IMG/VR virus record: IMGVR_UViG_3300023184_000027
Span: 124,001-188,000 of that record
Origin: a virus
Direction: 5' to 3' (one strand)
Length of the DNA stretch: 64,000 bases
A program made the position numbers and the translations under genes. The notes below the pieces were generated by a model, which was given only the letters and a program-made list of their open reading frames with translations, was not told the origin of the DNA and did not search any database. The first letter of the stretch is position 1; every line of letters starts with the position of its first letter. Shown in pieces: positions 11,972 through 27,794 of the stretch.

Positions 11972-14900
11972 TTATTTAAATTTGATTTTACCATCATAGG
12001 ATTTATTATCACTATCAGAATTTACACCACTATATAATGTCATAACATCTTTTTGTTGTTGAGCGTCTGTTGCCGTGTCCGGAATTGTTGTGTATTCAAA
12101 TTTCCTTAATTTACCTTTTGGATATACAAACTCATTAACATATTTAGTATATTCAGGGAATTCTTTTATCTTTTTAATATGATTTGATTCTAATAACAAT
12201 TCTTTATCAACAATTTTTTTAAAATTATCACAAATTTTTTCAAATTTATTTTTTAAGTTTGACGGACTTTTTACTGTTAATAACTCCCCTGATATAATTT
12301 TATTAATAAAATCATTATATTTGTTTTTATTTCCAAATATTTGAGCTAGCACCATAAATAGTCGTTTATCCTCAATAGACACCAATCCTGATGGCATAGC
12401 TTTAAATAATCCCGGTTCTGTATATTCGGAAGTTATTATATTAACATCTATTTGACGTTTCAAAAATGTTTCAAAATCTTGTAAACTTTGACCAATCAAT
12501 TTATAATCATTACCTAATTCAATATATGTGTTTAGTGGTGGTCCAGCACTAGCCGAATTAACTTCTGTTGTACCTTTTATGTTATAAACTCTAGGTTTAC
12601 CAGTTTCAAGTATTTTACCATCAGTATTAGTCATTAGTAAATTAATTTTTCTAAAATATTGAACCATACTCTCTTGTTGAGTTGTAATTTCTTGTATTTT
12701 GGTAAAAATACCATTACTAAATTCACCCTGATAATTATTAATGTAACTATTTAAATTTGTTTTAACTTTTTGTATTACAGAATCTGTAAAATTATAATTA
12801 ATCAACCCCTTAATTATTGGATTTTTATTAGACGGGTTGTCCGCATTAATATCAGACAATAAAGTTGAGAATAACGAATTAATTTTATTTTCAACACTCA
12901 CATTTCCATCTCCACCTGGTTTACCATATATGGGAACATTCCATTTAATACCATTAATGTTAAAATGTCCCATACTATATAATCTATCTTGAGTCATCAA
13001 CTGCCATATACCATAATTATAGGACTTTATTATAGATTCACACTGATTAGGAATATTTGTATAATATTCTTTTGTTGCATCTAAAACTTTATCCATAATT
13101 GTCGAATACTCCGTTTGTCCTGTTTGACCATCAGTTATTGGAATATTTGTTAAAACATTTCCAATTGTATTTCCACCATTATTTAAAAGACTATTATCTA
13201 TATTATTTACTGTTGCCAATGGTTGAACCCCTACAATAGCTTCTACAACTCTTGTGTCTAAAGCTTTAGTATCTTCAGTAGCCGTAGCCCTTTCATCATA
13301 TATTTCAGTATTAGCATAATAGTTAAACGATAACGCGTTTTGTAATTGTTCCACCGGTCTAGCCAATCCTTGTCCACCAATAAAGTCAAAACTCATTGTA
13401 ACATTTGCTAGCATTGGTTGTACACCAATACCTTCAGGATTTAAATCATAAAGTAATGGTTCATAAGTAAAGGCAACGCTATTTGGGATTATTTTACTAT
13501 TATAAAAATCGCCAATTCTTAAAACTAAAACCGGAGGTGCTCCGAAAGAAGTGTTAACCGCATCATTATATCTTGGTTTGTTATCTGTTCCAATAACTGG
13601 TATAGTCTCACCAGGTCTAACACATTGATTTAAGAAGGTTAATCGAGAATTTAACCCTTCAGGTGTCATAGAGTGAAACGCTGGGTTAAAATACTTAATT
13701 TTCTCTTTTATTGAGTCATATACCATTGGAGAATTTTCAGCAATAGCCTCAAAATAATCACATTCTGACAATAATTGTCTAATAATTTGTTTACTAATAC
13801 CTTTTTTAATACCATCTATTATATCAACAGTTGGTTGAGGTTTAACTGGTATTATTTTTTCTGGTATTGATGATGTTTCTTTTTTAGGTGGTTCAAGTAT
13901 TGGAGTTGGAGATGGAGTTACTTTAACATTATTAATCTTGACTCTTCTACACGCCATTGCACTTACAGAAAAAATTTGTGAATCATGAGTAACTTTTCCA
14001 TTTTTATCTTTAATATTTTTTGTACAATCAACTTGTTGTCCAATACCTAGTGATGTAGATGGAACTGATGTTGTTTCACCAACACCTTTTGGCGGATTAA
14101 TAATTAATGTTTTATCGGTAATAAAAGGACCTAAACAAGCATCACCAACTTTATATTCCGTTAAAAATTTTACAACAGAATCATTTCTTCTGATAGATAG
14201 TAAAGTATTATACGATGGGTCTGCAGGTGCTGACGCCGAACCTACCATATCAATAGTTATTTTACCCTTTTTCTCCTTTAAAATATTATAAGCATCAACA
14301 ATAAAATTACTTGTACCTCCTGTTATAACATTAATATTATTAATAACAACATTATTAAAAAATTCCGTTACATTTTTATTAGAACTACCATCATTAAAAA
14401 TTCCATTAGCATAATATTGATACCTTTCAATATTTTTGGTATCCGTATAATTACCATACGTGACATCGTATCTAACTGAAGACGTTGTTTGTCTTGTATG
14501 TGGGTCCGGAGTATCATTATCAAAATAAAAAGCAAATTCTTTATATTTTGTTTCAAAATCCGATATTGATGTGTCAGATGTTAATTTTTTTTGTTCACTC
14601 GATAAATCACCATTTGTTCCCGCATTATCCGCCGAAATTTTACTATTAATTTTTTTAAGTTGGTCAGGTGTTAAATTAGGGTCACTTAACGCTTTTTGAT
14701 ATGTATATAAATCTTTAGTTGGAATAGTATTAAATTTAATAGCCAATTCATATATATCGTATTTAACACATCCAGCAAAAAATGAATCAATAATTGAGTT
14801 AATTCTATCTTTGTTCTTTCCTTTTAATTGATGTTTAACAATCGCATTCATTATCGAAGGATGGTCAACAATCATTTTCCAACTTAAACTACCTGTTCTA

Positions 14901-16963
14901 GTTGTATCTTTATATGTATATATTGGTTCAGGTCTCCCTAAAAAAGTTTGTTTATTCCAACCGGCAGTACTAGTATCACTAAATTTTAAATCATACGGAG
15001 GAAACCACATAACTCTACCCCCATTTGGACCTTTCTCACAAACAGGTAATTCATCATAAGTAAATCCAGGTTTACTTGATGTTCTCCAAGCTAAATTCTC
15101 AATAGAGAACATATATTTTTTAGCATAACCACCTTTACCATTAACATCCGGAATAATATTTGTTGACCCATTTGAAAGTGGTGCAATATTTAGATTAAAT
15201 GTACTATCTAAAACTGAATTGGTAAAACCTCTATTTTTTGTGGTAATACCTTCTGTTTTTTGTAAATCGGCATAAGTGTAATATGGTGTATCTTTAGTAA
15301 ACACACGACAATACTCAATACCTACATTTTCACCGGTCGTTTGATTTGAATATGAAAGAACCTGTGAACCTTTCGTTATTTCTTTATAACCATCATGGAA
15401 TACCTTACTAACTTGATTAATTGCATTACCAACATGCTTTAATCTAGCAATCCCCGAAACATTATCTGCTGAATTAACTAATCGTTGTGTTTGGTCTAAT
15501 ATTGAGGTATCTTTAAAATCTATATTGGTAGATTCAGAACTACTAAAACTACTACTAATTTCATTAAACTCTGTGTCTAAACTTCCACTTCCACCACCAG
15601 GTGTTGCGTGAAATCCGGCATTTGATTTGTATTTTGGTGATGTCCAAACTAATTGACCATCAATTCCACCACCATCACTTGATGATTTTCCCGCTAAACC
15701 AAATTTTAAAATACCTTCGTTACCCTCAAATAATATACCCAATTCTGAAGGTCCATAAACCGGAGAGGATTCTTGTTGTCCGAAAGCATTAACAGGAACT
15801 TTATTTGGGGGAGATGTTATTGATGAAGGTTCAGAATTTTTACTACCAACATAATAACCCCCAATTAATGTACCATTACTAGGTTTAATAAGGTCAACGG
15901 CAAGATTCACTAAACCTTGAGCAACACCTAATAACCCACCATAGTTTTTATCATACGATGGTTGGTATCTATTGTAATTAACATTTGCAAATAAAGCTGA
16001 ACGCTGTCCGTTACCAGTATTATTTAAAAATATTTCAGAGGGGTTTCTTTTTAAATTTAAAATTGGTCCTAAAAATCCACCCGTTAATTGATTAATTACA
16101 TTTAACGCGGTTGATGTTTGTTTGGTCTGACTATTTTCATTATTATCATCAAAATAATCTCCCGGTATTAATGAAACCGGCCAATACGCTCCCGCCAATC
16201 TTGTTGCAAAATCAGCCGCAGCAATAACAGGGTTTTCCGGAACCGTAATTTTCCAATTTTTATATATTAGAGGTTGTTTCCCCGATACCATCATACTAAC
16301 CTCAAAAGGGTCTTGTAATGATTGTAAATTTACTTGTCCAACCGTTTTTTTAATAAGTTCAGCAGCAATCCTTTCTTGGAAAAGATAGTTTAATTGGGAA
16401 GCACCTAATTTAGCTATATATGAATCTTGAGATAACGAACCATTATCCCCATTTGGATTTTTTGAATATAATATATCATATGGACTATAGGTTGATGATA
16501 CAAAACTACTTGGGTCCCAATATGGTAAATATAATTTATCGTTATTTTGAGTATCCGTAACAATAAGCATTTCATTATAACCACCAATGGGTCCATAAGA
16601 ATTTGTAATGTAAGCAGCATCAATATAAAATTCATTAACTAAATCTAATACCGTATCATTTGGACTATATTCTCCCTGATTTGATTTTACAGGTAAAGGA
16701 GCTCTATTATAGGTTATATTCGTATTAAAACCACCATTCGGTCCATACTCATTTAATGGATATAATAGTGTCGCATATGGGTCATTAGCTATTAAATCAT
16801 TAGGGGAATCAATCACCGGAGATTGAGATAAAGTTACCTCATAATTTAAATCTGATGATGTGGGGGTATAAACACCCATAACACTATACGCGGCTAAATT
16901 TTTAGCCATAAGTATATTTCTAAATGATGATGATGAAGTAAAGGATAATGAACTATCTGACAT
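11972..16963 (-). CDS. Giant baseplate/tail protein with embedded OmpA-like domain
   Basis: This is a 1663-residue structural protein. The N-terminal half is rich in G, S, P and N, with repeats such as GPNGG, YGPIGGYN and PLNEYGPNGG. Around residues 865-1015 there is an OmpA-like signature: ITIDMVGSASAP, then YNTLLSIRRNDSVVKFL, and after an insertion MACRRVKI. These correspond to the GH(T/S)D, NxxLSxxRA and NRRVxI elements of OmpA C-terminal domains that bind peptidoglycan. A proline-rich linker (TPSPTPILEPP) follows. The later part contains VTMSFDFIGGQGLARPV and LSFNYYANTEIYDERA, characteristic of phage tail-associated structural proteins. It precedes the gp53-like gene by 2 nt and follows the tape measure. 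The baseplate assignment is by context; peptidoglycan binding is inferred. Confidence 0.65.
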   Translation of the reverse strand: MSDSSLSFTSSSSFRNILMAKNLAAYSVMGVYTPTSSDLNYEVTLSQSPVIDSPNDLIANDPYATLLYPLNEYGPNGGFNTNITYNRAPLPVKSNQGEYSPNDTVLDLVNEFYIDAAYITNSYGPIGGYNEMLIVTDTQNNDKLYLPYWDPSSFVSSTYSPYDILYSKNPNGDNGSLSQDSYIAKLGASQLNYLFQERIAAELIKKTVGQVNLQSLQDPFEVSMMVSGKQPLIYKNWKITVPENPVIAAADFATRLAGAYWPVSLIPGDYFDDNNENSQTKQTSTALNVINQLTGGFLGPILNLKRNPSEIFLNNTGNGQRSALFANVNYNRYQPSYDKNYGGLLGVAQGLVNLAVDLIKPSNGTLIGGYYVGSKNSEPSSITSPPNKVPVNAFGQQESSPVYGPSELGILFEGNEGILKFGLAGKSSSDGGGIDGQLVWTSPKYKSNAGFHATPGGGSGSLDTEFNEISSSFSSSESTNIDFKDTSILDQTQRLVNSADNVSGIARLKHVGNAINQVSKVFHDGYKEITKGSQVLSYSNQTTGENVGIEYCRVFTKDTPYYTYADLQKTEGITTKNRGFTNSVLDSTFNLNIAPLSNGSTNIIPDVNGKGGYAKKYMFSIENLAWRTSSKPGFTYDELPVCEKGPNGGRVMWFPPYDLKFSDTSTAGWNKQTFLGRPEPIYTYKDTTRTGSLSWKMIVDHPSIMNAIVKHQLKGKNKDRINSIIDSFFAGCVKYDIYELAIKFNTIPTKDLYTYQKALSDPNLTPDQLKKINSKISADNAGTNGDLSSEQKKLTSDTSISDFETKYKEFAFYFDNDTPDPHTRQTTSSVRYDVTYGNYTDTKNIERYQYYANGIFNDGSSNKNVTEFFNNVVINNINVITGGTSNFIVDAYNILKEKKGKITIDMVGSASAPADPSYNTLLSIRRNDSVVKFLTEYKVGDACLGPFITDKTLIINPPKGVGETTSVPSTSLGIGQQVDCTKNIKDKNGKVTHDSQIFSVSAMACRRVKINNVKVTPSPTPILEPPKKETSSIPEKIIPVKPQPTVDIIDGIKKGISKQIIRQLLSECDYFEAIAENSPMVYDSIKEKIKYFNPAFHSMTPEGLNSRLTFLNQCVRPGETIPVIGTDNKPRYNDAVNTSFGAPPVLVLRIGDFYNSKIIPNSVAFTYEPLLYDLNPEGIGVQPMLANVTMSFDFIGGQGLARPVEQLQNALSFNYYANTEIYDERATATEDTKALDTRVVEAIVGVQPLATVNNIDNSLLNNGGNTIGNVLTNIPITDGQTGQTEYSTIMDKVLDATKEYYTNIPNQCESIIKSYNYGIWQLMTQDRLYSMGHFNINGIKWNVPIYGKPGGDGNVSVENKINSLFSTLLSDINADNPSNKNPIIKGLINYNFTDSVIQKVKTNLNSYINNYQGEFSNGIFTKIQEITTQQESMVQYFRKINLLMTNTDGKILETGKPRVYNIKGTTEVNSASAGPPLNTYIELGNDYKLIGQSLQDFETFLKRQIDVNIITSEYTEPGLFKAMPSGLVSIEDKRLFMVLAQIFGNKNKYNDFINKIISGELLTVKSPSNLKNKFEKICDNFKKIVDKELLLESNHIKKIKEFPEYTKYVNEFVYPKGKLRKFEYTTIPDTATDAQQQKDVMTLYSGVNSDSDNKSYDGKIKFK

Positions 16964-17002: not shown

Positions 17003-18850
17003 TTAAGCTTGCATTTGTTTTGTTCTAGACCCTGTTTTGCTACTTGTTAAATTATTATTTGGGTCTAATTTACCAATAGAATATATTGCCTGAATCATTT
17101 GTGGGTCTTTAAATGCCAACGCTAATTGTGTTGTATCAATATTTGGATTGTTAGAATCTATTTTAATATTTAAATTAACATTTGAATCAACCGTGTGTTT
17201 AGTGTTTGCCTCTGTTACCCCACCAGGGGTTGTTGAACTAACATTTCTTAATGTGTTTGTTGTTTCAGCATTTGATGATTGATTACCAATTACTTCTTTA
17301 ACTTGGGGTATTGATTCAATCACTTTTTTTAATCTTTCACCAGAATTAACCATTAATTCTATAAAAATATTTTGGGATGTTGTTAAATTTTTCATTGATT
17401 CATCAGCTTTATCAACAGTCTCATTAAAAGCTGTTTTAAGACCTTTCTGAACATTTTTACTAGCAGATTGTAAACTCTCCAAAACTTTAGATAACGAAGA
17501 TTCTCCTTTAACAAACTTGTTAAAATCCTCTAAAACACCACCAACATTTTTATCAATCCCTTGTCTTATAGTTTTGATAGACCCCGATTCAATATTAAGA
17601 GTATTTTCTAATTGTTTATATAATTCTCTTGGAGCGTCTAACGCCGCTTGACCAACTTTTGTCCCCGCTAAAGCTCTACCAGGTCTATTTGCAATAGTAT
17701 CTAACGACGCTTTCATCGATTGTTGTTGAGTAAGTTGTGATTTTGCAACATCTTCAAGTGTTTTAGGTTGTTTAGACAACGCTTCTATATCGTCTTTACT
17801 TAATTCAGTAACACTTTTCCCCACAACCGCTTCACCCTGTTTATCAGTAAAACTAACCTCATATTTTCCTGTACCTTTATTCATTTCTGCCATATTGGCA
17901 ATCATAGTTCTTTGGTCTTCACTTATATCACCACCCGGAAACTTAATAGATTTCATTTTTTCAGACAATTCAGCACTACCTAAAGCCATTTTAGATAATT
18001 GTTCAGTATTTCCAAAAAGTTCCATAGAAATTTCTTTCATTTGTCTTTTAGCCCCTGGCATAATTTCAAAATTACCATCTTTGTTCAATCGAACAAATTG
18101 TTCACTCATTTTAGCAATTTGATTCTGAAGTTCCGCTGGGTCATTTTGCGCCAAATCCATTAATCGAAGTGGGTCTAATAAATCACTTTGTGCCACACCT
18201 AATCTTTGCATCGATGCCGCCATAGAAATCGCTTTCTCAGGGTCAAACAATCTATCAGCAAGGTCTAAAGTACTTTTCATATCAACTCGTAAACCGGTTG
18301 CTTGTGCTGCCATTTTAGCTAAACCATCAACACCATTAGCAAAGTTAAATTTATTAAGTGCTGACATATTTTCAAGAACTTGTTTAGACACTGTTTGAGA
18401 ATTAACACCTAAACTATTCGCTTTTAAAACTACTTTTTCCATTTGGGAAGACGCATTATACATAGAAAACCCCGCATCTTTAAATCCTGCGGTAATTTGT
18501 TCAATACTTTGACCCGACACTTCTTTAGCCGCATATAATTTAGCATAAGATTCTGAATTAAGTATTAAATTTCTACCTAAAGTTTTTGCTGCACTGTTTT
18601 GCATATCAATAATTGCCCTAAAGTCACCACCTAAAGCAACAACACTAGTTGATGCATCAACCATTGAAGCTTTTATCGCAACCAAATTTTGATTGCTGAC
18701 ACCCATAGTTTTCATAACTTCAGATGCCGCACTATCTACCTCATGTAAAATCCCTTTAATTTTTGCGTTGTCAAAATTATTTGAAAAAATCTCCCCGAGT
18801 TCTTTGATAGATTCTTTAAATGAATTTAGAATACCGTCCTTATCATCCAT
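17003..18850 (-). CDS. Tail tape measure protein
   Basis: This 615-residue protein is helical throughout, with many A, K, S, M and L residues and no cysteine. Its N-terminal 300 residues include repeated patterns such as SKQVLENMSALNKF, MAAQATGLRVDMKSTLDL and ISMAASMQRLGVAQSD, typical of tape measure proteins. The C-terminal part is serine/threonine-rich. Its position directly after the frameshifted tail assembly chaperone is the classical place for this gene. The length is close to the T4 tape measure gp29 (590 residues), so a tail of roughly T4 length is expected; that estimate is inference. It determines tube length and is packed inside the tube. A TATTTATA box lies 17 nt upstream. Confidence 0.8.
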   Translation of the reverse strand: MDDKDGILNSFKESIKELGEIFSNNFDNAKIKGILHEVDSAASEVMKTMGVSNQNLVAIKASMVDASTSVVALGGDFRAIIDMQNSAAKTLGRNLILNSESYAKLYAAKEVSGQSIEQITAGFKDAGFSMYNASSQMEKVVLKANSLGVNSQTVSKQVLENMSALNKFNFANGVDGLAKMAAQATGLRVDMKSTLDLADRLFDPEKAISMAASMQRLGVAQSDLLDPLRLMDLAQNDPAELQNQIAKMSEQFVRLNKDGNFEIMPGAKRQMKEISMELFGNTEQLSKMALGSAELSEKMKSIKFPGGDISEDQRTMIANMAEMNKGTGKYEVSFTDKQGEAVVGKSVTELSKDDIEALSKQPKTLEDVAKSQLTQQQSMKASLDTIANRPGRALAGTKVGQAALDAPRELYKQLENTLNIESGSIKTIRQGIDKNVGGVLEDFNKFVKGESSLSKVLESLQSASKNVQKGLKTAFNETVDKADESMKNLTTSQNIFIELMVNSGERLKKVIESIPQVKEVIGNQSSNAETTNTLRNVSSTTPGGVTEANTKHTVDSNVNLNIKIDSNNPNIDTTQLALAFKDPQMIQAIYSIGKLDPNNNLTSSKTGSRTKQMQA

Positions 18851-18875: not shown

Positions 18876-18913
18876 CGCCAACAACAATTTTATTATTCTT
18901 GTTTTGGCGTATT
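18872..18913 (-). promoter_or_regulatory. Long hairpin at the end of the frameshift product
   Basis: The minus-strand RNA can pair AAUACGCCAAAACAA with UUGUUGUUGGCGUAUU: about 15 bp with one bulge and an 11-nt loop. The stop codon of the frameshifted chaperone lies in the loop. No U-run follows, so termination is doubtful. It could limit read-through into the tape measure, which is needed in few copies per virion, or affect its translation start. Confidence 0.5.
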
Positions 18914-19793
18914 GTCTTCGATTATTCTATCAATTAAATATTTTCTCATATAGGTTGGCATGATGTTAAAATCATTATATGATGTTCTAATAAATTTAGA
19001 GAGTAAATAATACTCTTCGACTAGAAGTTGTCGATAATTAGAAGAAAGGCCGAAAAAACTCCACCCCAAAGGTAATCTCGAAAGTTACCAAGTCTCCTGA
19101 AGGGGCTTTTACTGTTTGTTTTAAGTCTAATGATGGTTGGTTTTCTTTGATGAAATTACGAACATATTTTGAGTCCATAATTGGTAATGAATCAACAAAT
19201 AATGAAATGTCCCCAGAATTTGAATTACCGTCAATTTCCACAATTTGTTTAGCCAATCTCCAAGTAACAACAGGAGCTGTTCTACCCACTGGGTAAGACT
19301 CCTCTAATGTTGAGAGATTAAGAATGTCTCCGTAAGATAAAGGTTTTAATTTTACGGTATGCCCCGTTTTAGGTAGTTTTGTAGTAAACAACCCATTTTC
19401 ATCTGGTTGAACACTAGTTTTCTTAATATTTAATTCATCAAGAATTACTGTATATGGGAATTGTTTAGATGTCTTTGGGTCAACTAAATTTACATTATAT
19501 TCAGGACCAAATGATGTGTTTCTTAAGAAAATTAAAATAGCCTCAACATCGCCATCCAATAACTCTTCAGGTTTTAAATCGTGCTCATAAATTTTATTTC
19601 TTAATAAGGTCATAATAATATTACTATTATTTTGAGATGCCCCCATTAAAAAATTCTCATCATTAGCGGTTAAATAACCGACTTTAATAGATTTCTTTTT
19701 TGATTTGTAAAATATCCCACCAGAGGGTAATATTACTACATCGTGAGGTAATGAAAAATTTTCAGTTGCAGCGTTAATTAAATCTTGTTCCAT
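18893..19793 (-). CDS. Tail assembly chaperone, long form by +1 (or -2) frameshift
   Basis: Reading from 19793, ribosomes that shift at the T-run (19058-19052) leave the zero frame after codon 247. They continue from 19051 to the stop at 18893, adding 52 residues: GLSSNYRQLLVEEYYLLSKF, then IRTSYNDFNIMPTYMRKYL and IDRIIEDNTPKQE. The added frame has no ATG upstream of this point (a TAA precedes it by about 9 codons), so it cannot easily be made on its own. The predicted product is 299 residues. Its gene order (tube, chaperone, tape measure) is the one in which many long-tailed phages express a G/GT-type pair by programmed frameshifting. The long form should recruit tape measure and tube subunits. 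The frame shift is seen in the sequence; that it is used is inference. Confidence 0.75.
19038..19793 (-). CDS. Tail assembly chaperone, short form (gp26-like)
   Basis: This zero-frame product has 251 residues, ending GVEFFRPFF. The N-terminus (LPHDVVILPSGGIFY, then VGYLTANDENFLMG) and the middle (LKPLSYGDILNLSTLEE) resemble T4-type proteins annotated as gp26 baseplate hub. I read it instead as the short form of a tail assembly chaperone. The reasons are its place between tube and tape measure and its overlap with an in-register downstream frame. The short product ends only four codons after the slip site. A TATATAAACA element lies about 15-25 nt upstream of the ATG, and a terminator closes the tube gene before it. 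Confidence 0.75.
   Translation of the reverse strand: MEQDLINAATENFSLPHDVVILPSGGIFYKSKKKSIKVGYLTANDENFLMGASQNNSNIIMTLLRNKIYEHDLKPEELLDGDVEAILIFLRNTSFGPEYNVNLVDPKTSKQFPYTVILDELNIKKTSVQPDENGLFTTKLPKTGHTVKLKPLSYGDILNLSTLEESYPVGRTAPVVTWRLAKQIVEIDGNSNSGDISLFVDSLPIMDSKYVRNFIKENQPSLDLKQTVKAPSGDLVTFEITFGVEFFRPFF
19048..19061 (-). other. Putative programmed frameshift site
   Basis: The minus strand reads GAG TTT TTT CGG CCT in the zero frame. The tRNA-Phe on the second TTT can re-pair on TTC one base forward, leaving GGC as the next codon. The zero-frame A-site codon is CGG, which should be rare in such an AT-rich genome and could slow decoding. A -2 slip from TTT to the preceding TTT gives the same frame. 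Confidence 0.65.
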
Positions 19794-19926: not shown

Positions 19927-20415
19927 TTAATAAACTAATATACAACGGTCCATACGAATTGTCGCCGTAATAGACGCAAGAGCATCCGTTGAATATCCTA
20001 ATGAATCAAAATTAACATCACTTAAAAACGAACCTTCTAAAATCCATTTTTCAACAACAACACCTGTTGGGTCTAACATTTCTAAATCAATATTTTTCTT
20101 ATATCCCGCAGCATACCCCATTCTACCTGTTACAGATTCTGCACATAATCTAACCCACTCCATAAGAGCTTGAGACGCTGAAGGTCCAATTGGGTCTCTA
20201 AACTTAACATTAATTACTCCCCAAGTAAATCTACCAGCAACATATGTTGAAGTATTTAGAAAAGGAATTTCTGTTGCGTTAATTGTAATATGTGGTCTAG
20301 CCGCGGTTTCAACAAACCATTCATTAATTCCCAAAGAAGATGGAAAACGAACAATAAACCTATTCTGTCTTTTAGGTTCATACGGTATGGGCATTTTCAT
20401 TAATAAATCAGCCAT
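19927..20415 (-). CDS. 19: Tail tube protein, gp19-like
   Basis: This 162-residue protein is almost the same length as T4 gp19 (163 residues). Characteristic stretches are MPIPYEPKRQNRFIVRFP at the N-terminus, WGVINVKFRDPIGPSASQAL in the middle, and WILEGSFLSDVNFDSLGY followed by ASITATIRMDRCILVY at the C-terminus. It forms the hexameric rings of the inner tube through which DNA passes. It stands alone between a TATTTATA box and a terminator, which fits a highly expressed late gene. No oddities are visible. Confidence 0.88.
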   Translation of the reverse strand: MADLLMKMPIPYEPKRQNRFIVRFPSSLGINEWFVETAARPHITINATEIPFLNTSTYVAGRFTWGVINVKFRDPIGPSASQALMEWVRLCAESVTGRMGYAAGYKKNIDLEMLDPTGVVVEKWILEGSFLSDVNFDSLGYSTDALASITATIRMDRCILVY

Positions 20416-21439: not shown

Positions 21440-24400
21440 TTATATATTCTCAAAAGAAGCTCCGGTTGGAGTAATATAGAATGTGATATCTATAAATTCT
21501 AATGATTTGGTTGGTTTGATATAAATCTTACCAGTCATTTGATTTCTGTCTAAATCAGCAGCATCTGATGATACTGTTACACGGAAATCATATAAACCTC
21601 TATCTCTTCTGATAGCATCCAAAATAGGGTTAACAGCGTCCAAGAAGTCTTGTCTTACTTTAGCGTCGTTTTGTTCAAACAATAATCTTACAGATACCGC
21701 AGAAATCAATTTACGAGCTTGAAGTAATAATCTTCTAACATTGATTCTATCTAAAGCCGATTGTCTTACTTGAAGAGTTTTATTACCCCAAATTACAGTA
21801 CCAACATCAGAGAAAGTAGCAATTGGGTTAATACGACCTTGATAAAGTGTATCTCTATCTTCTTGGGTTAGTTTACGTCTCGCTTTAACCGCATTTACAA
21901 TACCTCTTGTGTAACCCGCCGCAGCGAACCAAGGGAAAGCAATGTTATCAGTTAATGCTAAATTTCTCGTAACCTCAGCCGTTGCCGGTAAGTAGATTTG
22001 AGTATTGTTAACACTATCTCTTGTTAATACCCAAGGGTAGTAAGTTGCCGTGTAATTAGAATCTACACCTATTTGGTCTAAATTATCCACAGCTTCTTGA
22101 GGGTAGATTAAATCTAATTGGTCTCCGGTAGAAGGTACAAACATATTGTAATCAGGAGTTGTTGTAATATACAACGAATCCGCTCTATCATTCTCAATCA
22201 TATCAATAGCACTTTCAACTAAATCTGAATTGTTAAGATAATCAATACCCGGTGTTACAAAAACATTGATGTTAACCGCCTCAGGATTAGAAAATGTCAT
22301 TTGTCCTAATTTATATGCGTAATAATCAGTGTTACCATAATCTTGAGTATTGTCCCCAACTGTAATTTGTTTAAATGCTCCCCAACCTGTTGCTGTAGGA
22401 TATTTAATCGAAGGACAAGAACCGTGTAAGTAACCATTTCTACCTAATACAAACGTATCACCATTTGTTCTGTGTTCTCTGTAGATATCCCACCCGTCAA
22501 AACCTCCTTGAACAAGGAGACTGAATTTACGAGAATATAGTCTATAGTAAGGACTTGATTCGTTATCAGGGTCTTTAGTGAATGTTGCATCTCCAACATA
22601 GAATGCTGGTGTACCACTTGTTGCAAAAGCATTAGGAATTAAGATACTATTAGCGTCTTTATCCATGTGGAAACCTTTAGTTCTTGTTGACCAATCATCA
22701 CCTGTGATATCATTACAAACATCTAACGGAAGTTGTTTACCTTTATAACCAAAGAAATCAGCATCAATACCAATACTATCAGATATACCAAGATAAGTTC
22801 TTCTTACATTGTCACCACCACTTCTAGTTGCGTCATCCGCTCCTGAACCTAATCCAAATGGGGGGTTATAAACAACCTCACCAGGATAATCGTATTTAGT
22901 TTTCATAATCGGGAATGGTGATTTAACACCTGCGTAATCTCTAGAATTAAACCCTAAAAATCCACAAGGAAGAGCGTCCATTGGGGCATCTTCGTTAATC
23001 TCAATCATAACATATTTTGAATTTAATTCGTACTCACCATCCATAGTACCAATTTTCTTAGCAATGAATGAATTGTCGTTTATATTCATATTACAATTTG
23101 TAAATTTCTCAAGAACAACAGGTGCACTATCTGAATCATAAAAATCTCTAACTAACACATCAAAAGTTCCATTGTTAAATGAAATATTTGCGATAGATAT
23201 TTTAACCTCTGTGTTAGCAGCTTCACCATCAGCGATTGTTGTAAATTTAAATAAGTTGTAAACTTTATTACCTCTTAATTCAGATACAACCCAAGGAGAT
23301 GTTGGTGATTGATATTTTTCTAAGTACCAAGCGATTGATGTTGGGTCATTTTGTTGTCTAGCATTAGGTAATGCTGTTAATTGACAATTTAAACCTCTAA
23401 TATACCCTTTTCTATATCCGTATGTTAATAATGTTTGATATCTCTCTTCTACATACAATGGAACTGTTGTTCTTGGTTTTGCAAAATTGGACGAACCAAA
23501 TACTTTACTAATATATTTAGAATCAGAATTTTGGAATGAGGTTTCAAAGAAATATGACTCACCATCTTTATTAGTAACATTTAAACCAAAAGTAGAATAT
23601 GGGTTTTTAGTAATTCCTGAATAAACTGAAGTACAATCTATGGAAACATCTGTTAAACCAGATACTTCATAAACAGCTCCGTCATCACTACCGTAAGTAG
23701 CTAATCCTCTTGAACGAAGTGTTGCAATAACTAAATCGTCAAAATCAGTATAAGCCATTCCTGAATAAACATAAATTTCACCTACAACTGAACCTGAATA
23801 ACAAGATTTAGTTGTACCTGTGTTAGGTGTTCCAGTATTACCAGCAATATTAACATTACAAGGTACTACAGTTTCAACACAAACAGTCCAAGTAGTTGTA
23901 ACACTTTCATCTTCTGAAAGTAAATTATAAGATAAACATCCACTTGAAAAATCGTTAGCCGTATGTCCACTAATTTGATTTGTCAAAATTGACACATTTC
24001 CTGCACAAGTATTGAACCCACAAACAATTTTTGATAAGTCTACACCTACCGGAACGACAACGTCTATTCTATTTGTGTTATAATTAATACTACCAATTGT
24101 TGTAGCACTTAAACTTGATATAACAATTTTTGCATCACTATGAATTCCTTGTATTATAGTGATTGTGTCACCAACTTGATACCCCGTCCCTGGTGAATTA
24201 ATCGTTACTCCGGTAATCACATTACTAACATTAACTGCAACATTAACCGTTAAACCAGTTCCGTAAGTACTACCTGATGTTGTACCACTTCCTGCGGAAT
24301 ATCCTGTTCCACCTGATAATGAACCAGTGTTAAAACCTGAAACATATCCGCCAACACTAAATCCAAAGAAAGTAGCACAAGTTGATGAGGTAAATGTTGG

Positions 24401-25240
24401 AACAATAGTGTCTATAACACCATAAAAAGACGAACCCGTATATGAACCACCACCAATATTGTCAAACAATGAATAATACCAAGGGTCGTTTTGTGGTGCT
24501 GTGTAATCAGCTAAATCTGAACTAACATTTTCAACACCAAAAACATTTGTTGATGCTGTATATGATGTTAATCCTGAATAACTACTTGTTGGTATTGTAC
24601 CAAAATATGAAATACCTGAATACGAATCGCCATAATTGGTAATTGAGTTAAATATTAAATTATTAATATCTGAACGAAGAGTTGAGATGCTACCGTTAAA
24701 TAATTCATAAGGTAAATCTATTCTATCTGTTATGAAATCTTGTAAATTATCTCCAGTATCAGTTATAGATGATAAACTATCATTACAACCTGAAAAGTCA
24801 TAATGATACACATATGTTTCATAACTATCACAACCATCAACACAATCAACTATTGTTGGAACATCACAATAAAAATCTATTGTGGTTGGGTCTACATTTG
24901 CTTTTGTTGTGATTGACCAAGATGGTCCCGCATCATATCCGGAAAGACCTAAAACTCTAGTTACAAATAATTGATTAGATTGTTGTAAATATGCTTTAGC
25001 GATATAGGACGCCTCATACTTTGGTATTTGTGTGTTTATAAATTTTTCAGGGGAAGTTCCTCCAAAATACGCCGAGAATTCATCAAAATTTCGTATAAAA
25101 ATAGGTTCGAAGGCTGGACCTTTTAAGGTTTCACCAACAATACCTAATGTAGTTACACCCACACTTTGGGCTACGAAACTTAAATCAACTTCAGAAGTAT
25201 ATACTCCAGGAGATACGAATACTTTACTGTTTGATGCCAT
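21440..25240 (-). CDS. 18: Contractile tail sheath protein, gp18-like, with large insertion
   Basis: The N-terminus MASNSKVFVSPGVYTSEVDL is the standard start of phage sheath proteins, followed by VTTLGIVGETLKGPAFEP. The C-terminal 400 residues include WFAAAGYTRGIVNAVKARRK, LYQGRINPIATFSDVG, VRRLLLQARKLISAVSVRLL and the final GKIYIKPTKSLEFIDITFYI, all typical of gp18. The protein is 1266 residues against about 659 in T4. The extra length is mainly a G/S/T-rich, beta-type region (residues about 115-560) with cysteines and a GTGYxVGDTITI element. That region is probably exposed on the outer face of the sheath. The protein surrounds the tube and contracts at infection. It has a TATTTATC box 37 nt upstream. 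Confidence 0.9.
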   Translation of the reverse strand: MASNSKVFVSPGVYTSEVDLSFVAQSVGVTTLGIVGETLKGPAFEPIFIRNFDEFSAYFGGTSPEKFINTQIPKYEASYIAKAYLQQSNQLFVTRVLGLSGYDAGPSWSITTKANVDPTTIDFYCDVPTIVDCVDGCDSYETYVYHYDFSGCNDSLSSITDTGDNLQDFITDRIDLPYELFNGSISTLRSDINNLIFNSITNYGDSYSGISYFGTIPTSSYSGLTSYTASTNVFGVENVSSDLADYTAPQNDPWYYSLFDNIGGGSYTGSSFYGVIDTIVPTFTSSTCATFFGFSVGGYVSGFNTGSLSGGTGYSAGSGTTSGSTYGTGLTVNVAVNVSNVITGVTINSPGTGYQVGDTITIIQGIHSDAKIVISSLSATTIGSINYNTNRIDVVVPVGVDLSKIVCGFNTCAGNVSILTNQISGHTANDFSSGCLSYNLLSEDESVTTTWTVCVETVVPCNVNIAGNTGTPNTGTTKSCYSGSVVGEIYVYSGMAYTDFDDLVIATLRSRGLATYGSDDGAVYEVSGLTDVSIDCTSVYSGITKNPYSTFGLNVTNKDGESYFFETSFQNSDSKYISKVFGSSNFAKPRTTVPLYVEERYQTLLTYGYRKGYIRGLNCQLTALPNARQQNDPTSIAWYLEKYQSPTSPWVVSELRGNKVYNLFKFTTIADGEAANTEVKISIANISFNNGTFDVLVRDFYDSDSAPVVLEKFTNCNMNINDNSFIAKKIGTMDGEYELNSKYVMIEINEDAPMDALPCGFLGFNSRDYAGVKSPFPIMKTKYDYPGEVVYNPPFGLGSGADDATRSGGDNVRRTYLGISDSIGIDADFFGYKGKQLPLDVCNDITGDDWSTRTKGFHMDKDANSILIPNAFATSGTPAFYVGDATFTKDPDNESSPYYRLYSRKFSLLVQGGFDGWDIYREHRTNGDTFVLGRNGYLHGSCPSIKYPTATGWGAFKQITVGDNTQDYGNTDYYAYKLGQMTFSNPEAVNINVFVTPGIDYLNNSDLVESAIDMIENDRADSLYITTTPDYNMFVPSTGDQLDLIYPQEAVDNLDQIGVDSNYTATYYPWVLTRDSVNNTQIYLPATAEVTRNLALTDNIAFPWFAAAGYTRGIVNAVKARRKLTQEDRDTLYQGRINPIATFSDVGTVIWGNKTLQVRQSALDRINVRRLLLQARKLISAVSVRLLFEQNDAKVRQDFLDAVNPILDAIRRDRGLYDFRVTVSSDAADLDRNQMTGKIYIKPTKSLEFIDITFYITPTGASFENI

Positions 25241-26566: not shown

Positions 26567-27001
26567 TTATTTTGTTATAAAAATTTTATTTTTTAAATTA
26601 ATCATTTCCACTTCATTGGCGTGAAATATAGGTTCTTCGGTGTCTTTCATAACATAAGAATTATACTTGTATGGGTTGTAGGTGACAATATTATTGTTAG
26701 GTTCTTCTGGTAAATTCTCACAAGGGAATATACAATAGTCCATTAAAGTTCCGATAACAAATGAATGTACGTTTTTTCTTTTTTCTTTTAAAACTTTTTC
26801 TCTACCACCGGGTCTAACTCTAAACTCAACATCTTTTAATTTAACATAATCGGCATGAAATATAACTAAACTTTTGTATATAATAGAAAATGTTTGTTTA
26901 TGTAGGTTATAATAAAGCATAACTTTTTTACCGATATAATCGTTATCTGAATAATTTTCAAATAATCTTTTTGATTGAGATTCTGTTATTAATATTTTCA
27001 T
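26567..27001 (-). CDS. Small protein with MKILITE leader (candidate internal head protein)
   Basis: This 144-residue protein is not recognised beyond its leader MKILITESQSKRLFENY. The leader is shared, nearly unchanged, with the next two genes upstream. I-T-E fits the (L/I)-x-E site cut by the T4 gp21 prohead protease, and T4 internal proteins carry short leaders of this type (MK... ending in E) as capsid-targeting sequences. The body is basic in the middle (FRVRPGGREKVLKEKRKN) and beta-rich. Its ATG shares one base with the stop codon of the upstream gene (TAATG), so the two are translationally coupled. Packaging and injection with the DNA is inference. Confidence 0.65.
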   Translation of the reverse strand: MKILITESQSKRLFENYSDNDYIGKKVMLYYNLHKQTFSIIYKSLVIFHADYVKLKDVEFRVRPGGREKVLKEKRKNVHSFVIGTLMDYCIFPCENLPEEPNNNIVTYNPYKYNSYVMKDTEEPIFHANEVEMINLKNKIFITK

Positions 27002-27405
27002 TATTCGTAATATGCTGATACCGATTTAACCGGTAAATTAAATTTATCTTCAACCCATTTTTTCATAGGTTCTCTCCAACTACTTCCAAACATATTGTCT
27101 AAATGTTCACCATATTCACCCCATACCTCTACAATTGGTGCCCTGTCTTTATGTGGTTTACTTGATGGTTCATCACTATAGTAATCAACATTAAGATAAT
27201 TAAATACAATATCAGAATAATCTTCACCAGCCCAAGTACCACCTTTATAAAAATGTAAAAGGTTTTCATCTTCAGGATTTTCCTGCCAATCGTCACCGTC
27301 GTAATTTGAACCATAGACCCAATCAATTTCATTTGAGTCTAAATAACCATCAATATACTTATATATTGAATCAAATAATTTACTTTCTGTTATTAATATT
27401 TTCAT
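27001..27405 (-). CDS. Small acidic protein with MKILITE leader (paralogue pair, copy 2)
   Basis: This is a 134-residue acidic protein starting MKILITESKLFDSIYKY. It is a paralogue of the next gene upstream. Both have YYSD followed by a P-I-hydrophobic strand, and both end NMFG, W, EPMKxW, a charged helix and LPVK. Aspartate and tryptophan are common in the middle (WVYGSNYDGDDWQENPED). It overlaps both neighbours by one base as TAATG. The leader suggests targeting into the prohead, where the mature protein would begin at the serine after E7. The body function is unknown; acidic DNA-mimic or takeover proteins would look like this, but that is conjecture. Confidence 0.65.
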   Translation of the reverse strand: MKILITESKLFDSIYKYIDGYLDSNEIDWVYGSNYDGDDWQENPEDENLLHFYKGGTWAGEDYSDIVFNYLNVDYYSDEPSSKPHKDRAPIVEVWGEYGEHLDNMFGSSWREPMKKWVEDKFNLPVKSVSAYYE

Positions 27406-27794
27406 TAGTCGGCTACGATTGTTTTTACTGGTAAATCAAAGTTATCTTTAAACCACTCTTTCATAGGTTCTACCCAATAATTTCCAAACATATTGGTTAA
27501 TTTTTCATAATCAGTAACAATTAATATTGGTGTCTTTTCTCTAAAAGATTTATTTGAATGTTTATCACTATAATATTCCTTTTGAATATATGCAAAAGCA
27601 ACACCATCTTGGTCGTAATCACCTTCATATATATGATAAAAATACTCTCGTATATATGGGTTTTCCTCATCATCATATTCATCATCATTCCATGTGGTTG
27701 GATGAAAATAATCTATGTTACTTACATCAAAAGTATCTTCAAGATAATTATATATTGTTCTATATAATTTATTTTCTGTTATTAATATTTTCAT
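27405..27794 (-). CDS. Small acidic protein with MKILITE leader (paralogue pair, copy 1)
   Basis: This is a 129-residue acidic protein starting MKILITENKLYRTIYNYL. The C-terminal half (NMFGNYWVEPMKEWF, then LPVKTIVAD) matches the neighbouring copy at 27001-27405, so the pair arose by tandem duplication and has since diverged. The middle has WNDDEYDDEENPYI, a dense acidic run. The ATG shares one base with the stop of the neck-like gene upstream. The conserved leader against a diverged body indicates that the leader itself is under selection. Confidence 0.65.
   Translation of the reverse strand: MKILITENKLYRTIYNYLEDTFDVSNIDYFHPTTWNDDEYDDEENPYIREYFYHIYEGDYDQDGVAFAYIQKEYYSDKHSNKSFREKTPILIVTDYEKLTNMFGNYWVEPMKEWFKDNFDLPVKTIVAD

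Follow-up and report, generated by a model that had tools for sequence, protein, structure and literature searches.

Frameshifting in tail assembly chaperone genes was described as widely conserved among long-tailed phages, with the exception of T4 (PMC5009743). In most of the known cases the ribosome shifts backwards. In lambda gpG/gpGT and other tail assembly chaperone frameshifts (Xu, Hendrix and Duda 2004, cited in PMC5009743), the gene lies between those of the tail tube and the tape measure, and a short extension in a second frame, without a conserved start, is reached near the 3' end of the chaperone through -1 tandem slippage with a downstream structure. Phage Mu makes its GT protein by a -2 shift (PMC3498833), and in the archaeal myovirus HSTV-2 the tail chaperone shift was reported to be very likely +1 (PMC5009743, PMC8211752). 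UUU_Ynn codons are prone to +1 shifting in bacteria (PMC5009743), and for influenza A PA-X a +1 shift has been proven at UUU_CGU, within UCC_UUU_CGU, where the P-site tRNA re-pairs from UUU to UUC (PMC3498833). The latter study also predicted a class of UUU_C sites in which CGN occupies the A site; its predicted examples are viruses of eukaryotes (PMC3498833). The RF2 gene (prfB) likewise shifts +1 through P-site slippage, with a slow A-site codon, which is a stop, and a G-rich element just upstream. In T4, gp26 and gp51 are encoded by two separate genes on opposite strands without any shift; both are listed as hub assembly chaperones, and gp51 is essential but of unknown function (PMC3004832).

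The locus described here shares features with each of these systems. Very probably, a programmed +1 ribosomal frameshift allows a single gene to encode two tail assembly chaperones, as judged from comparative sequence evidence; the product and its efficiency have not been shown. The coding arrangement and the direction are held with high confidence, and no confidence can yet be attached to an efficiency. The gene position and the short second-frame extension without a conserved start resemble those of lambda, whereas the predicted shift is +1 on a single UUU in a chaperone of the T4 gp26 family, with a probable structure upstream rather than downstream. The core UUU_CGN, the predicted UUU to UUC re-pairing in the P site, and CGN in the A site are those of PA-X, but the ribosome is bacterial and the E-site codon is UUU or UUC instead of UCC. 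The target frame and the kind of gene are those of Mu. A predicted +1 shift in a tail assembly chaperone is shared with HSTV-2, which belongs to another virus group and host.

The window, i.e., the whole stretch of 64,000 nucleotides that was analyzed, covers positions 124001-188000 of a source record of 207,952 bases. The features of the locus are as follows.

19927..20415, minus strand: tail tube protein, the gene preceding the chaperone (phrog_4542 tail tube, E 6e-25)
19793-19038, minus strand: G-like tail assembly chaperone of the T4 gp26 family, read in the zero frame, 251 aa, with TAA at 19040-19038
19063..19106, minus strand: candidate stimulatory stem, GCCCCU (19106-19101) with UGGGGU (19068-19063), based on a conserved helix and folding energy
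19050..19058, minus strand: putative shift site UUU UUU_CGG, with TTTTTT at 19058-19053 and CGG at 19052-19050, then CCT TTC TTC and the stop
18893..19051, minus strand: +1-frame extension (T-like domain, gp51-related), 52 codons and a stop
17003..18850, minus strand: presumed tape measure, the gene following the chaperone, 615 aa, assigned by position

The chaperone matched PF12322 (T4_baseplate) over residues 30-232 of 251 (E 1e-10, 42.1 bits against a curated cut-off of 24.5) and phrog_150, the T4 gp26 family (E 1e-13). Family and profile searches gave no match for the 615-aa gene of the window, and the same slot carries a tail tape measure annotation in two relatives (L061 and L066). The order of tube gene, chaperone, and presumed tape measure is thus the position expected for a G/GT frameshift gene. 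Several other products are encoded nearby on the minus strand. A 1663-aa protein without a clear family match follows the presumed tape measure (11972-16963). The tail sheath (21440-25240) has 1266 aa, of which only the last 300 residues matched sheath domains, and the approximately 960 preceding residues include glycine/serine-rich stretches. Additionally, three adjoining small genes at 26567-27794, whose products begin with MKILITES, MKILITES, and MKILITEN, are probably tandem paralogues with a conserved N-terminus.

An AlphaFold model, which covers the zero-frame protein only (pLDDT 87), aligned modestly with the HK97 tail assembly chaperone 2ob9 (Z 5.5, 85 aligned residues, rmsd 3.5). Scores were 6.6 for 3fgx and 5.3 for 3klu, which is YqbN, a relative of prophage tail chaperones, and the next entries were at 4.3 and below. 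No significant match to solved structures was found by Foldseek. The predicted likeness to the HK97 chaperone is a modest support for the role and not a proof of it.

The chaperone gene ends with GGG GTG GAG TTT TTT CGG CCT TTC TTC TAA, while the +1 frame runs on as GLSSNYRQLL... from GGC (19051-19049) to TAA (18895-18893), which gives a full extension of 52 codons (GLSSNYRQLLVEEYYLLSKFIRTSYNDFNIMPTYMRKYLIDRIIEDNTPKQE). The coordinates and sequence of the chaperone end and of the 52-codon frame to 18893, first given in a sequence-only reading, were correct when read again. The same reading had described the hidden frame as lacking any ATG, which is true upstream of the site but not within the extension, where codons 31 and 35 are ATG. 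Its expectation that the waiting codon CGG should be rare was borne out: CGG occurs seven times in the 35 ORFs of the window, or 0.36 per thousand codons, and is among the rarest codons of the phage. A tRNA gene search of the record found none, and a phage-encoded tRNA that relieves or causes a pause at CGG was rejected on this ground. An Rfam search at the shift site also gave no match.

Relatives were gathered with peptides from other parts of the gene, excluding the shift site, which yielded 57 and then 80 loci. The non-redundant set numbered 65, or 64 for those counts in which L056 was set aside. A search of bacterial genomes found no relative. The +1 extension was present in all relatives with a readable end, and the chaperone always stopped a few codons past the site. 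Over the 36 codons beyond the chaperone stop, the +1 frame contained no stop among 64 sequences, whereas 261 and 278 stops interrupt the remaining two frames. The ratio of pN to pS was 0.225 in the extension frame and 1.3-1.5 in the others, and a dN/dS of approximately 0.13 was estimated for the extension from disjoint pairs. The extension frame is therefore, by these comparisons, under strong purifying selection, and what had only looked like a conserved frame is one in fact. While a single open frame of 52 codons has a chance of about 1.5% at 31% GC, chance is not the explanation, as the frame is both open and conserved in every relative with a readable end. The gene is dual-coding, with selection on both frames. 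Some pieces of the extension have entered existing annotations: short "hypothetical" genes in Flavobacterium phage immuto (NC_055915; L066, 3839-3949) and Bacillus phage SP-15 (L063, 3755-3874) are truncated parts of it, and it is wholly unannotated in the isolates Streptococcus phage GXN1 and Listeria phage LIS04.

Codon choice at the site was strongly constrained. The second Phe codon was TTT in 64 of 64 relatives of the clade, whereas TTC accounts for 28% of Phe codons in the same genes. The next codon was CGG in 42, CGC in 14, CGT in seven, and CGA in one of the 64 relatives (excluding L056), and never AGA or AGG, while AGA alone makes up approximately 70% of the Arg codons in these chaperone genes. 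Arg was thus encoded by CGN at the site in 64/64 cases against 84/573 elsewhere in the same genes, and by CGG in 42/64 against 3/573. The corresponding Fisher p of approximately 1e-46 overstates the independence of the sequences, as they are related, and dual coding accounts for part of the codon bias, because UUY is required at this place in the +1 frame. Altogether, UUU_C with CGN in the A site was found in 64 of 65 clade members, the exception being L056 with UUU_UAC, and the E-site codon was UUU, or UUC in three.

The sequence-only reading had proposed that tRNA-Phe re-pairs from TTT to TTC one base forward, leaving a shift of -2 open as the other way into the same frame. In a -2 shift as in Mu, the P-site tRNA-Phe would move back two bases within TTTTTT and one extra Phe would be inserted; in the window a UUU does lie two bases back for such re-pairing, and TTTTTT taken alone would permit either direction. 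The exclusion of -2 accordingly rests on relatives only. Where the site reads TTC TTT CGN (L094, L099, L100, and L101), a -2 shift would put tRNA-Phe on UCU, and this argues against it. The clade that includes the isolated phage immuto comprises 79 loci, of which 37 are unique, with the sites TTT CTT TGG, TTT TTT TGG, TTT CTA TGG, and TTT CTT TAC; the TTT CTA TGG form leaves the first TTT as the sole codon able to slip, onto UUC, and a -2 shift there would meet CCU. Similarly, the site of LR756508 is AAC TTT CTA, where -2 would meet ACU. None of these relatives has lost the extension, and such natural variants leave -2 very unlikely. A +1 shift on UUU_Y is the common denominator, as UUU followed by a pyrimidine occurs in every site that uses the +1 frame, including those of phages GXN1 (TTC TTT CGT), SP-15, LIS04 (first TTT), and Microcystis phage Mel-JY01. 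The proposed re-pairing is thereby supported, and of the two directions only +1 remains. A canonical -1 heptamer X_XXY_YYZ was also rejected, because the extension lies in the +1 frame and the -1 frame is not conserved and ends quickly, in the window about 12 codons past the site.

A second explanation would dispense with a shift and have the extension made as a separate small gp51-like protein, from an internal start such as TTG 19069 or by reinitiation. Separate gp51 genes of 54-57 codons with an ATG are annotated in KVP40, P-SSM2, and S-SCSM1, and the TTG, located 11 nt upstream of the site, is present in 58 of 65 relatives and is the only start-like codon upstream in the hidden frame of the window. 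This TTG is, however, a by-product of the chaperone codons TTT GGG and is lost where TTC is used, and in three relatives (L104, L146, and L148) neither ATG nor GTG nor TTG precedes codon 8 of the extension. Upstream of the site the +1 frame stays open for a median of only 26 nt, and ribosome-binding (Shine-Dalgarno-like) sites precede merely two of 35 ORFs of this phage. A separate start would also leave the invariant UUU_C and the CGN unexplained, and it is considered about as improbable as the -2 shift. As in a G/GT gene, the overlapping second frame of this locus is therefore selected as protein although no start codon is conserved for it.

Transcriptional slippage, by which the frame would be shifted in some of the mRNAs, has the T6 run at the junction in its favor, but six T make a short run, no T-run exceeds three in the TTCTTTCG and ACCTTTCTATGG relatives, and the conserved CGN would remain unexplained, so that hardly any weight is left to it. 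A sequencing error or a decayed former fusion, for which nothing speaks beyond the broken frame itself, is already refuted by the low dN/dS and by a break that recurs at the identical place in isolates as well as in numerous contigs assembled independently of each other, and scarcely merits further consideration.

In the preferred reading of a +1 ribosomal shift, the stretch before the site also requires explanation. Beyond the stretch that is read in two frames, synonymous codon bias was strongest for GGG (Gly 243) and GCC (Ala 230), which coincide with the arms of the candidate stem; as only the zero frame is read there, the conserved GGG needs another reason. The stem ends four bases before TTTTTT and ranked first in conservation among the 6-bp helices that an exhaustive scan considered, with 96.8% paired in 145 unique sequences, some of which were collected by a scan for the shift-site core. 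In 31 of 31 sequences, the 51 nt preceding the site had a lower folding energy than synonymous redraws (mean z -2.1), compared with a z of -0.26 in control stretches of the same gene. The free wobble pair of the stem was C-G in 130, A-U in eight, G-U in two, and unpaired in five of the 145 sequences. A targeted covariation search identified 15 sequences with a non-G wobble base, of which ten keep the pair and five do not; for example, L120 and L141 changed both sides of the stem, while their close relative L185 broke the pair. The marine clade keeps the pairing only partly, and in the flavobacterial clade different local hairpins occur, which are less well supported (z -1.16). As the covariation support is weakened by the targeted search, the stem is regarded as probable for the clade of the window only, and its stimulatory role is an inference. 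Within the same region, the codons of an APSGE motif (GCC CCN TCA GGA GA; 19092-19106, minus strand) are synonymously conserved beyond what the stem needs.

Two other stimulators were considered. A downstream hairpin was rejected, with none found by consensus folding and a z of -0.06 against synonymous redraws. A Shine-Dalgarno element as the sole cause was also rejected, since the GGAG of the window, at the place of the prfB-type element 3 nt before the P-site codon, is GAA or GAC in many relatives, the GGGG is absent in the marine clade, and such sites are few in the phage. A G-rich element just upstream is a feature shared with prfB, but the G-run here looks like an arm of an RNA stem and is missing from other clades, and the A-site codon CGN is a sense codon. 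Ribosomes of the Bacteroidia occlude their anti-Shine-Dalgarno (PMC8710568), and the genes of this phage, mostly without Shine-Dalgarno elements, resemble those of the Bacteroidia. A host in this class, suggested by this scarcity and by immuto, is a guess.

The following mechanism is proposed. Most ribosomes would read to the stop at 19038 and release a G-like protein ending in EFFRPFF. With tRNA-Phe on UUU (19055-19053) in the P site and the rare CGG waiting in the A site, the tRNA may move one base forward onto UUC (19054-19052), where pairing is better, and translation would continue in the +1 frame to give a G-T fusion of 299 aa, EFF-GLSSNYR...TPKQE. The RNA stem, re-forming behind the ribosome at the place where prfB has its Shine-Dalgarno element, would probably favor this movement. 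If lambda G/GT is taken as a model, the tape measure protein would be coated by the short form, and the T-like tail would recruit tube subunits. The occurrence and efficiency of the shift, the part played by the stem, and the role in assembly are all inferred here without protein or ribosome-profiling data.

The identity of the extension connects this gene to the T4 exception. The extension of the window alone gave no family match in profile searches, phrog_634 (baseplate hub assembly catalyst) included. Extensions of the marine clade matched phrog_634 (E 0.001-0.007), and a pooled extension profile matched gp51 of P-SSM2, KVP40, and S-SCSM1 with a probability of 93.7 (E 1.9e-7), so that the extension appears, on profile evidence, related to gp51 of T4-like phages. 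In KVP40 (L069), P-SSM2 (L071), and Atu_ph07 (L070) the extension lies in the -1 frame, and T_TTT_TTC stands in phase just before the gp26 stop; XacN1 has T_TTT_TTT at the same position. A -1 shift may be used in KVP40, P-SSM2, and Atu_ph07 beside or instead of the annotated ATG of gp51, of which no report was found in the literature searched.

T4 gp26 (L382 3806-4429, minus strand) has 208 aa and consists of the PF12322 domain alone. T4 gp51 (L382 4480-5226, plus strand) has 249 aa and carries the PF12322 domain (E 4e-52) and a phrog_634 tail (E 1e-23) in one frame. The two share 20% identity (E 2e-6). In T4, two genes thus encode one short and one extended chaperone, the products that the frameshift would make at this locus, and gp26 and gp51 look like paralogues, a G/GT-like pair that arose from duplication instead of frameshifting. 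This link to T4 rests on family profiles: the profile of the window's chaperone set had no direct match to the single T4 gp26 or gp51 sequences, and neither had the pooled extension profile to the single T4 gp51 tail. No paper linking T4 gp26/gp51 to G/GT was found in the literature searched, outside which subscription papers mostly fall. Related phages with the two frames fused or separately started had been named in the sequence-only reading as grounds for refutation. Separate starts are met only in distant T4-type phages (KVP40 and the cyanophages), and a fusion looks to be met in T4 gp51; both are alternative routes to the same pair and do not refute the shift at this locus. The remark that a +1 site in a T4-type tail cluster would be unusual is fair in general, while within the gp26-like family +1 is the rule.

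The PA-X-type UUU_CGN +1 site is new in phages, its direction being inferred without peptide proof. A broader proposal, which may equally well hold or fail, is that a widespread class of such sites exists in which an upstream stem acts as the forward pusher in hosts hardly using Shine-Dalgarno elements, and that the T4 exception is explained by gp26 being G and gp51 being GT after duplication replaced the shift. The natural bacterial UUU_CGN +1 class, with its many variants, offers material for studies of forward slippage, and for annotators the missing gene product is located in the extension. The chaperone family of T4 itself would use frameshifting, in the +1 direction, across several phage groups, and gp26 and gp51, hub proteins of T4 that are still poorly understood, gain a testable role as tape measure chaperones.
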